A DNA stretch of 64,000 nt, taken from contig NZ_JAPVBL010000001.1 in NCBI RefSeq assembly GCF_026967935.1, forward strand, positions 186,001 through 250,000. Direction: 5' to 3'. Below the pieces are notes generated by a model. The model had not been told where the DNA came from, did not search any database, and saw only the letters and a list, made by a program, of their open reading frames with translations. The translations under genes were made by a program, and so were the position numbers. Position 1 is the first letter of the stretch; every line of letters starts with the position of its first letter. Positions 3,020 through 8,213 of the stretch are shown here, in pieces. The DNA is from Modestobacter sp. VKM Ac-2982 (GTDB lineage: Bacteria; Actinomycetota; Actinomycetes; Mycobacteriales; Geodermatophilaceae).

Positions 3020-3766
3020 TCAGCCGACGCTGGCGTACTGCATGTCCAGCGCGCCGTCGTAGGGCGCCAGGGTCAGCTGGTTCTGCTCCTCGAGGTCGAA
3101 GGTCAACCCGTAGTCCTCGACCGCGTCCTGGAAGACCTGCACCTCCGGGGAGGCCGCCAGCTCCTCTCGCATCTCGTCGGCGTCGCCGACGGCGGTGACC
3201 ACGTAGGGCGGGGAGTACGCGCGGCCGTGCAGCAACAGGGTCGGGCCGACACAGATGACCGCGCTGGTGGCGATCAGCCGCTGCCCCATGATGGCCACCC
3301 CGTCGGCACCAGCGGCCCAGAGGGCGTTCACCACACCCTGGACGTCGGACTGGTGGATGACCAGGTTGTCCGGGTTGCCCTCGGTCGGGGTCGTGCCGGT
3401 GGGCTGGCGCGGTGCGTCGTCCAGCACGATCGACATCCCCGGCCCGGTCACCTCGGCGAGCCCGGCGGAGCCGACCCCGGGAGCGACCCGCCGCTGAGCG
3501 GCGGCGACCTCACCGTTCCGGGAGGCCGCCAGGTCGGTGAGCGCCTGCACCTGCTCCTGCAGGGCGGCCAGCTCGCTCTGCTGGCGGGCGACGGCGGAGT
3601 CCCGCTGCTCGATCAGCGCGGACAGCTCGGTGATCTCCCCGCCCCGCAGGTCGGTGCCCTGCGCCGTCCTGCTGGAGGTGGCGAAGAGCAGGCCGGCAGC
3701 CAGGGCGACGACGGGCACGAGCCCGACCCACGGGTCGAACCGGCGGGAGCGCCCGGTGCGGGCCAT
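3020..3766 (-). CDS. DUF881 membrane-anchored protein
   Basis: Member of the DUF881 (YlxW/YlxX-like) family, found next to division genes in actinobacteria and firmicutes; its molecular function is not established. Visible are a basic N-terminus, one membrane helix at about residues 14-31, a likely coiled coil at about 43-85, and the DUF881 domain beyond (motifs such as VTGPGMSIVLDD and NDLW-like VVNALWAAGADG). The protein is probably anchored with the domain outside the cell. AGGAGG lies 5 nt before the ATG. It is transcribed divergently from crgA, as in mycobacteria. The class E sortase gene often found between this family and trpG is absent. Confidence 0.9.
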   Translation of the reverse strand: MARTGRSRRFDPWVGLVPVVALAAGLLFATSSRTAQGTDLRGGEITELSALIEQRDSAVARQQSELAALQEQVQALTDLAASRNGEVAAAQRRVAPGVGSAGLAEVTGPGMSIVLDDAPRQPTGTTPTEGNPDNLVIHQSDVQGVVNALWAAGADGVAIMGQRLIATSAVICVGPTLLLHGRAYSPPYVVTAVGDADEMREELAASPEVQVFQDAVEDYGLTFDLEEQNQLTLAPYDGALDMQYASVG

Positions 3767-6026: not shown

Positions 6027-6431
6027 GTGCACTGGTCGCCCCGGATCGGCGAGGCGGTGGCGATGGCGGTCACCGGCGTGGCCCTCGCGCTGGCCACCCT
6101 GCTGGTCGACCCGGTGGGTCGGGTCCTCGTCGGTGGCGGCGCCGTGCTGCTGCTCGGCCTGGCCACCCGCGACCTCCTGCTCCGCCCCCGGCTGCGGGCC
6201 GATGCCCGGGGTGTGACGGTGCGGGCGCTCAGCGGGGGCACGACGATCGCCTGGCCGGCGCTGCGGGCCCGGGTGCGCACCGCACGACGGTGGGGGTTGC
6301 GGACGCAGACGCTGGAGCTCGAGGACCGCACGGACGACGCCGTCCTGGTCGTGCTGGGCCGCCGGGACCTCGGCGAGGACCCGGCCACGGTCGCCCGGGC
6401 ACTGCACGAGGCCGGCGCGGGAGCCGGCTAG
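6027..6431 (+). CDS. Small membrane protein with bacterial PH-like domain
   Basis: Two hydrophobic segments at about residues 9-27 and 31-48 are followed by a compact beta-rich region (about 55-132, with ADARGVTVRAL and TIAWPALRARV). This is the layout of the actinobacterial bPH/Cfp6-type family encoded beside crgA and ppiA in mycobacteria. Function is unknown. The start is GTG. The 3' end overlaps the convergent rhomboid gene by 4 nt, so transcripts of the two genes overlap tail to tail. Confidence 0.8.
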   Translation: MHWSPRIGEAVAMAVTGVALALATLLVDPVGRVLVGGGAVLLLGLATRDLLLRPRLRADARGVTVRALSGGTTIAWPALRARVRTARRWGLRTQTLELEDRTDDAVLVVLGRRDLGEDPATVARALHEAGAGAG

Positions 6432-7306
6432 CGCCAGCCGCCGAGGACCAGGACCAGCAGCAGCACCACGAGAGAGGCGATCCCGCCGACCGCGACGGGC
6501 CGGCGGCCGCGGGCCAGGACGAGGACCCCGGCCGTGAGCACGCCCACCACCAGACCGCCGAGGTGCCCGAGCAGGGAGACCCCCGGCAGGAAGCTGATCG
6601 CCAGGTTGATCACCAGCAGGGTGAGGAGGCCGCGGAGGTCCTGCTTCTGCTTCAGCAGGACGACGCCGAGGGCCCCGAGCAGGCCGTAGATCGCCGCCGA
6701 TGCCCCGACCACCGCACCGAGGTACGCGCCGAACAGCTGCAGGGCGGCCACGCCGCCCAGCGCGGAGACCAGGTACACGGTCAGGAAGCGGCCCCGGCCC
6801 AGCATCCGTTCGAGCTCGGAGCCGAACAGCAGCAGGGCGAGCATGTTCAGCGCCAGGTGCACCGGCCCGACGTGGGTGAAGGCACTCGTGACCACCCGCC
6901 ACCACTCACCGACGTCGACCAGGTACGGGACGATCGCGAAGTCGTCCTGCAACGGTGACCGGAAGCTGCGCAGCGGGTTGACGCCGACGCTGATCGCCGA
7001 GGCGGCGGTCGCCAGGGCGACCAGCAGGTTCAGCGTGATGAGGGAGAGGGTGACCGGCCCCCAACGCCGGGCGGCGCTGCGCAGCCCGGTGGTGCGCTTG
7101 GGACGGCGGACGGTGGCGTTGCCGGCCCGCACGTCGTCCGGGCACTGGAAGCCGACCGCGGCCGGGTTCATGCACTCCGGGCAGATCGGCCGGCCGCAGC
7201 GGGTGCAGCGGACCCCGGTCGGCCGGTCCGGGTGCCGGTAGCAGGTGGCTGGGGGCGCCGGCTGCGGATCCGCGCCGGCGCCCCCGTTGCCCTCAGGCGT
7301 GCTCAG
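6428..7306 (-). CDS. Rhomboid intramembrane serine protease with N-terminal zinc finger, apparent CTG start
   Basis: Rhomboid proteases cut transmembrane substrates within the membrane. The dyad is visible as Ser203 (GASAAIYG) and His248 (LLGHLGG), with HLALNM in an early helix; there are six or seven helices. A Cys/His-rich finger precedes them ([25 protein letters not shown]), as in many actinobacterial rhomboids. The first ATG in frame (7171) would cut through this finger. The frame is open upstream to a stop near 7355 but has no ATG, GTG or TTG. A CTG overlapping the ppiA stop (CTGA), 8 nt after GAGGTG, fits best. The product would be 292 residues and coupled to ppiA. Confidence 0.85.
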
Positions 7307-7839
7307 CTGCGCTGCACCTCGACGGAGTTGATCACGACGTCCTCGACCGGGCGGTCACCGCGGGCGGTCGGGGTGGCGGCGATCGCGTCGACGACCTGGC
7401 GGCTGGCGTCGTCGGCCACCTCACCGAAGATCGTGTGCTTGTTGTTCAGGTGCGGCGTGCTGGTGACGGTGATGAAGAACTGGGAGCCGTTCGTGCCCGG
7501 GCCCGCGTTGGCCATGGCCAGAAGGTAGGGGCGGTTGAACGACAGGTCGGGGTGGAACTCGTCACCGAAGCGGTAGCCGGGGCCACCGGTGCCCTGACCG
7601 AGCGGGTCGCCGCCCTGGATCATGAAGCCCGGGATGACCCGGTGGAACACCGTGCCGTCGTAGAGCTTGTCGGTGGTCTTCTCGCGCGTGCGCGGGTCGA
7701 TCCACTCGCGGCTGCCCTCGGCGAGCTCGGTGAAGTTCGCGACCGTCTTCGGGGCGTGGTCGGGGAACAGGTCGACGGTGATGTCGCCGTGGTTGGTGTG
7801 CAGGACGGCGCGCCGTGCGGCGGAGGTCTGTTCAGTCAC
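7303..7839 (-). CDS. ppiA: Cyclophilin-type peptidyl-prolyl cis-trans isomerase
   Basis: Cytoplasmic cyclophilin that speeds proline isomerisation during folding. Core motifs are present: [20 protein letters not shown], the FGDEFH segment, [16 protein letters not shown] and the HTIFGEV loop, with the catalytic Arg in FHRV. There is no signal peptide. Of several clustered GTG codons, the one at 7839 is chosen because GGGAGAG lies 8 nt before it; the more upstream GTGs are too close to that site. The stop overlaps the CTG start proposed for the rhomboid gene. The position matches ppiA of mycobacteria. Confidence 0.95.
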
Positions 7840-7935
7840 GACCACCACTCTCCCACTGCGGCCCGTGCGGCCGCTGGGCGACCGGTGGGACCGGGCTGTG
7901 GCCGGGCGCCCGGCGACGTCCCGTGCGGATCGGAG

Positions 7936-8008
7936 TGGAGACGAGGGGAATCGAACCCCTAACCCCCGCCTTGCAAAGGCGGTGCTCTGCCAATTGAGCT
8001 ACGTCCCC
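7936..8008 (-). tRNA. tRNA-Ala (anticodon TGC)
   Basis: The minus strand reads GGGGACGTAGCTCAATTGG, then an anticodon arm CCGCC-TTTGCAA-GGCGG with anticodon TGC, and a T arm containing GGTTCGATTCC. The acceptor stem GGGGACG pairs with CGTCTCC (one G-U), with discriminator A. CCA is not encoded. tRNA-Ala and tRNA-Ile at this place near gyrA are typical of actinobacteria. Confidence 0.97.
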
Positions 8009-8069
8009 GAAGGGAAAGACAATCACGTCCCCGGGGAGGCTGCGGTCGACGGACCCCGCAGCCGCGGGT

Positions 8070-8213
8070 TCAGGAGGCGCGCGGCGTGCTGACCGAGCCC
8101 GGACCGCGGGTGGCCTCGGCCCACAGGTCGGCCTCGCCCTTGCCGCTGCTGCGCTTGCGCACGGCCGCCAGGGCAGTGGCCGCGACCGCCGCCATCGCCA
8201 GCTTCTTCAGCAC
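8070..8213 (-). CDS. DLW-39 family small protein
   Basis: A 47-residue protein: GTG start, GAGGAGG 6 nt upstream, hydrophobic N-terminus MLKKLAMAAVAATALAAV followed by basic residues, then the signature E-A-D-L-W-A-E-A-T with Asp-Leu-Trp at residues 29-31. DLW-39 proteins are tiny actinobacterial proteins of about 39 residues encoded between gyrA and ppiA, with no known function; the N-terminus may sit in the membrane. It lies between the two tRNA genes, as expected for the family. It is short enough to be missed by routine gene calling. Confidence 0.88.
   Translation of the reverse strand: MLKKLAMAAVAATALAAVRKRSSGKGEADLWAEATRGPGSVSTPRAS

Follow-up and report, generated by a model that had tools for sequence, protein, structure and literature searches.

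ATGA and TGATG gene pairs translated by termination-reinitiation (PMC6728339) are the closest described counterparts of the ppiA-rhomboid pair analysed here. Like them, this pair has a 4-nt overlap and a Shine-Dalgarno sequence in the upstream gene. Unlike in them, the downstream start is proposed to be CTG; CTG and GTGA go unmentioned in the main text of that paper. The record of CUG as a bacterial start is poor and counts against the proposal. Its reported efficiency is about 0.86% of that of AUG and it accounts for 0.024% of bacterial starts (PMC11497404), leadered CTG was not enriched in a mycobacterial selection experiment (PMC4633059), and an upstream CUG in Caulobacter dnaA is toeprinted and unused in vivo (PMC8443254). 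Among 61,358 ancestral AUG starts, 2 switched to CUG (PMC5622118). The rare CUG starts in these sources share the initiation codon proposed here; as described there, they are rare uses or switches between close relatives (PMC11497404, PMC5622118), whereas the CTG described below is a single one across 98 genomes in 8 genus groups. Streptomycete rhomboid family A has the same peptidyl-prolyl isomerase neighbor and an accessory zinc finger, and the term 'start codon' does not occur in the main text of the paper describing it (PMC4467639). Our search of the open-licence PMC literature recognized nothing on a CTG start of a rhomboid gene next to ppiA. The pair is a stop/start-overlap gene pair of a known type, and its family-wide CTG start is the novelty.

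The window is a 64,000-nucleotide stretch of contig 1 of the genome of the soil bacterium Modestobacter sp. VKM Ac-2982, and all coordinates refer to it unless stated otherwise. It contains the following features.

7303-7848, minus strand: ppiA, a cyclophilin-type peptidyl-prolyl isomerase of 181 amino acids, an open reading frame scoring 160 bits with PF00160 (cut-off 21.7).
6428-7306, minus strand: rhomboid intramembrane protease, 292 amino acids if read from the CTG, scoring 111.3 bits with PF01694 (cut-off 22.6).
7315-7320, minus strand: GAGGTG, a Shine-Dalgarno-like sequence within the ppiA codons, predicted to pair with the 16S rRNA of the same genome and nearly invariant across the family.
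7304-7306, minus strand: proposed rhomboid CTG start, sharing its TG with the ppiA stop (CTGA); 98 of 106 family genomes have it in frame.
7303-7321, minus strand: candidate 19-nt initiation block CGAGGTGCAGCGCAGCTGA, identical in 91 of the 98 CTGA genomes.
7251-7285, minus strand: GC-rich hairpin GGGGGCGCCGGC...GCCGGCGCCCCC with a 12-bp stem, its first base at +22 from the C of the CTG.
7172-7243, minus strand: Cys/His finger codons preceding the first ATG (C22, H25, C34, C37, C42 and C45).
7169-7171, minus strand: first in-frame standard start, an ATG at residue 46, giving a 247-amino-acid frame; a gene caller limited to ATG, GTG and TTG would begin here.

The upstream gene ppiA ends in VEVQRS followed by TGA (7305-7303), and the CTG occupies 7306-7304. 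An earlier note on this DNA had placed the CTG over the ppiA stop as CTGA, and its coordinates are confirmed on the minus strand. The rhomboid is read in the -1 frame with respect to ppiA, and this frame opens after an in-frame stop at 7357-7355. As that note claimed, the finger lies in frame upstream of the first ATG, and no ATG, GTG or TTG is found in this frame between the stop and the ATG at 7171. The GTG within GAGGTG is in the ppiA frame. The third codon from the CTG is ACG. Reading the CTG as Met does yield the N-terminus M-S-T-P-E-G. A start at the ATG was said to remove most of the finger; it would in fact drop six of the seven Cys and His residues of the region, more than 'most' suggests, with only C55 lying after it. 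The 8-nt distance given for GAGGTG (7320-7315) is also correct (7314-7307), and the 16S 3' end of the same genome contains the complementary anti-Shine-Dalgarno CACCTCC. A likeness had been drawn to other ATGA and GTGA overlaps in the window. This is reasonable: a strict, composition-filtered scan found three ATGA, two GTGA and six CTGA overlaps. The rhomboid has the farthest first standard start of the six CTGA cases, at 45 codons; the others lie at 2, 4, 15, 22 and 29. CTGA overlaps at window positions 3023, 47070 and 61296 have their first standard starts 29, 15 and 22 codons on, respectively.

The downstream gene encodes a member of the rhomboid family, with the PF01694 match, Ser203 in GASAAIYG and His248, the two residues that we take to be catalytic. 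Its scores with the NCBIfam equivalogs for GlpG (43.8 against 250 bits) and rhombosortase (54.8 against 84 bits) are below the cut-offs. The finger is B-box-like and putatively metal-binding, and scores 22.7 bits with the B-box zinc finger model PF00643, below the gathering cut-off of 24.1. A tRNA-Ala gene (anticodon TGC, 7935-8008) is located upstream of ppiA on the same strand, and apart from it an Rfam scan of 6400-8100 found nothing above the gathering score. The initiator-tRNA stem was examined because it is involved in discrimination against CUG. The pattern of three G-C pairs occurs at two places in the genome, both tRNA-Met(CAT) according to ARAGORN, and no special initiator tRNA was seen with this pattern and program.

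We asked how widely the CTG is shared among Geodermatophilaceae, the family being defined by named relatives (112 genomes). Loci were located by BLAST anchoring, and one was examined in each rhomboid-bearing genome; weaker second matches in G102 and G043 and a duplicate in G062 were left out. The rhomboid is present in 106 of the 112 genomes, and six gave no match. ppiA is in view at 105 of the 106 loci (G090 has none on its contig piece). In Geodermatophilus africanus (L049, L050) the region lies on two contigs with equal scores, by duplication or as an assembly artefact.

Of the 106 genomes, 98 have a CTGA that shares the frame of the finger, a count in which related genomes are not independent events, and these span 8 genus groups. 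Presence at this frequency makes the overlap more than chance, and a sequencing error is excluded since 97 further genomes have the same CTG. The spacer between the CTG and the first Cys has 11 lengths, from 36 to 84 nt, and the frame is never lost in the 98 genomes. Codon two is Thr or Ser in all of them. There is no ATG, GTG or TTG between the CTG and the finger in 67 of the 98, and in 52, the window included, no standard start is found anywhere in the open frame before the finger, so that no standard start can give the conserved N-terminus. The remaining genomes count against the CTG. A GTG or TTG lies between the CTG and the finger in 31 of the 98, and a GTG upstream of the ppiA stop, opposite ppiA, in 29 (25 at -400 and four at -148). 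Among the eight other family loci, four (group g8) have an ATG at the same codon, two (g6) have an ATG downstream and one (g6) lacks ppiA. In the last, Goekera (L099, g5), CTGA is out of frame and the gene has its own ATG at +67 inside the linker.

In a tree of 116 rhomboids (106 family and 10 outgroup rows), the 98 CTGA sequences and Goekera form one clade (SH-aLRT 97), within which Goekera sits on a long branch. The g8 and g6 sequences fall outside this 99-row clade, and the fewest changes among three states is three. The simplest history is one gain of CTG followed by one replacement with ATG. A smaller tree built with other outgroups does not join g6 and g8 to the remaining family members, which leaves their exact position uncertain. 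The earlier note proposed a search for homologues with ATG or GTG at this exact codon, and such homologues exist. ATGA is found in L168, L172, L173 and L174, within the family and outside the CTG clade, and GTGA is found at the position in L071, L072, L074 and L092 from other Actinobacteria. An out-of-frame finger in relatives had been named as a reason to abandon the proposal; the CTGA is in frame at 98 of the 105 family loci with ppiA. The exact-codon ATG and GTG starts and the in-frame finger bear out a rhomboid start at the CTG, and the feature is older and more constrained than a single genome could reveal.

The surroundings of the CTG are unusually conserved in DNA. In an alignment of ppiA from 97 of the 98 CTGA genomes (one was too short), the last six codons are the most conserved six-codon window of the gene, with the modal DNA in 89 of 97; the next best window has 78 and the median 24. 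The encoded tail VEVQRS is kept in 94 of 97 proteins. The synonymous choice is nearly fixed for AGC (96/97), CGC (96/97) and the GTG of the second Val (95/97), and other conserved Ser, Arg and Val columns of ppiA are more variable. The Glu and Gln codons of the tail are equally fixed elsewhere in ppiA. In all 98 genomes the final Ser codon has C, and never G, in third position. Elsewhere in ppiA and the rhomboid genes G fills the third position in 36% of Ser codons, and such a codon here would be silent in PpiA and create a GTG start. Compared in this way, the CTG stands out as a conserved start codon position within an unusually conserved block.

Codon differences upstream of the ATG were counted in 36 non-overlapping genome pairs, chosen to have linkers of the same length that are at least 65% identical. 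Of the 192 differences within the 24 finger codons that precede the ATG, 146 are at third positions, and 131 codon differences are synonymous against 48 non-synonymous. The value for the rhomboid gene body is 1194 of 1885. The finger codons are coding-like to at least the same degree as the gene body. The linker from the CTG to the finger gives a weaker but significant signal, with 111 of 249 differences at third positions (p=1.5e-4). Synonymous differences in the linker are highest in its own frame (78, against 36 and 45 in the other two). Absence of stops cannot single out this frame, since the +1 frame is also stop-free in all 98 genomes; stops interrupt the +2 frame in 19 of 98. The coding signal of the linker is modest, which counts against the CTG start.

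Rhomboid loci outside the family were also compared. Order-level matches were found in 368 of 397 genomes, leaving 293 after subtraction of the 75 family genomes listed. From among the best-scoring matches listed, 60 of these 293 non-family loci were read, together with 14 further genomes of group f4. A standard start is present in the open frame before the finger at 59 of the 60; the exception, L234, is from the same genome as L241. In f4, 17 genomes were read. L249 has a CTGA overlap whose CTG is the sole NTG codon of the frame ahead of the finger (one ATC is present as well), and in L241 the sole such codon is a CTG without overlap. L240 and L246 also have a CTGA overlap; L240 has in addition a GTG just 21 nt ahead of the finger, and L246 an ATG after the overlap. 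A Frankiales metagenome-assembled genome (L088) has CTGA and no ATG, GTG or TTG, and its relative L090 has CTGA and GTGs. In the smaller tree these loci do not group with the family of the window. They hint at recurrence of CTG at the rhomboid gene in two other lineages, as single cases without support from conservation.

A hairpin is found behind the CTG. In the window it corresponds to positions 193251-193285 of contig 1. The idea of a genome-wide repeat was rejected, as the pattern matches this one place in the genome. In the 89 of 98 genomes with linkers longer than 40 nt, the 100 nt that follow the CTG can form a best stem of 8-17 bp. Compared with 1984 control windows drawn from ppiA and the rhomboid gene as well, 73 of the 89 stems are above the 99th percentile and 57 above the maximum. 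Despite the varying linkers, the first base of the stem is at +17 to +25 in 81 of 89, and at +21 or +22 in 50. The nine genomes of the spacer-81 class, whose linker looks unrelated, likewise pair from +22. Covariation was assessed in five linker-length classes covering 77 of the 98 genomes, with stem positions chosen on the same sequences. In the spacer-60 and spacer-66 classes, 5 and 3 of the 14 pairs, respectively, show double-sided changes, and pairing in both classes exceeds all 500 shuffles. Of the three other classes, one tied the shuffle maximum, one was below the shuffle mean and one hardly varies.

The statistics for the hairpin are mixed in part. Its strength exceeds that of synonymously resampled sequences only moderately (mean z -1.48 across the 98 genomes), indicating that Gly/Pro coding explains part of it. 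The stretch in the window has a folding z of -2.75 relative to dinucleotide shuffles, and an equally strong stem occurs in 36 of 2556 overlapping hundred-base windows of the 64 kb. Early strong stems are not confined to CTG genomes, since 9 of 62 loci without the overlap have one above the control 99th percentile. Among these 62 no link was seen between a stem and a non-ATG start (5 of 24 with GTG or TTG, 4 of 38 with ATG; p=0.29). Nine short-linker genomes lack the hairpin and keep the CTG. This counts against a hairpin-aided start and indicates that the hairpin is not essential.

Taken together, the comparisons argue strongly for rhomboid initiation at the CTG. It is highly probable that the protease is translated from the CTG overlapping the ppiA stop with its whole finger kept, the likely route being termination-reinitiation. 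The stop/start overlap that such a route calls for is present as CTGA, in frame in 98 of 106 genomes. We hypothesize the following sequence of events. A ribosome finishing ppiA would stop at the TGA, where its 16S tail would pair with GAGGTG in the last ppiA codons. It would then restart one nucleotide back, on the CTG. The rhomboid would begin with fMet as M-S-T-P-E-G and retain its N-terminal Cys/His finger. About 21 nt after the start is near the expected leading edge, or footprint, of a ribosome on that codon, and in many family members the hairpin at this distance may hold the ribosome on the CTG. A hairpin downstream of a weak start reportedly enhances initiation in eukaryotes, an effect attributed to Kozak. 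There, too, a stable stem closely follows a poor start at a fixed spacing; the eukaryotic case involves scanning 40S subunits, and here a bacterial post-termination ribosome is proposed.

Other readings of the locus differ in where and how translation would begin. Initiation on the CTG could occur de novo, uncoupled from ppiA termination, and the good Shine-Dalgarno match would suit it. It is nevertheless rather unlikely, as CTG on its own initiates very poorly in the bacteria studied (PMC11497404, PMC4633059), and the overlap is present in all 98 CTG genomes, although it formed part of their definition. The true start could instead be another in-frame codon. Candidates are present in many genomes: ACG lies between the CTG and the finger in 44 of 98, in addition to the GTG and TTG codons and the far-upstream GTGs noted above. 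None of them is conserved, the open frame of over half of the genomes contains no standard start before the finger, and the conserved block is centered on the CTG, which makes such a start most unlikely. The internal ATG at 7171, or its equivalent, is the first standard in-frame start, and its use would leave the finger region untranslated. This is scarcely credible. The third-position and synonymous excess indicates that the 24 preceding codons are under purifying selection, which contradicts initiation at this ATG, and a similar finger sits behind an upstream ATG or GTG in relatives.

The block itself could be kept only by the PpiA C-terminus and codon bias, in which case the CTG would simply result from a Ser-stop ending. 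A Ser codon with C in third position does produce CTGA before a TGA stop, the VEVQRS tail is kept at the protein level, and ppiA fixes its Glu and Gln codons to the same degree outside the tail. However, the frozen synonymous sites at AGC, CGC and GTG and the absence of the silent G-ending Ser codon are not expected from this, and we consider it very unlikely; even if it were true, no other conserved start was found. A programmed -1 frameshift at the end of ppiA, producing a PpiA-rhomboid fusion with the Shine-Dalgarno sequence and hairpin as stimulators, would account for the -1 relation of the two frames. An upstream Shine-Dalgarno-like site and a downstream hairpin are also the general layout of bacterial frameshift signals. 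Yet the sequence before the stop (G CGC AGC TGA) has no X XXY YYZ slippery run. The 17 nt from the TGA to the hairpin in the window are a longer gap than is usual in such signals. Four family members start the rhomboid with ATGA, Goekera with its own ATG, and non-family relatives have separate genes with their own standard starts. A frameshift is highly improbable.

With initiation at the CTG as the preferred reading, the protease would be made at a small fraction of the PpiA level, CTG being a very weak start. A low protease output relative to PpiA is a plausible reason for keeping it, and we infer that low output may be its selected purpose. A fuller version is offered tentatively, with more doubt than confidence: the Shine-Dalgarno sequence behind the CTG and the hairpin ahead of it would form a conserved reinitiation device that fixes a low ratio of protease to PpiA, with GTG avoided, and CTG-only starts would have arisen more than once, in the family, in group g15 of f4 and in the Frankiales genome.

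To our knowledge, common gene callers do not use CTG starts. As they skip this rare codon, the protease of the window is probably truncated or mis-started in many databases. A family-wide CTG, where a silent change could give GTG, provides a natural test of selection for weak starts, and also of whether a stop/start overlap and local RNA structure rescue a poor start codon. The analysis suggests that these bacteria couple synthesis of a rhomboid protease to that of PpiA through a conserved CTG at the end of ppiA, and that this synthesis is possibly deliberately weak.
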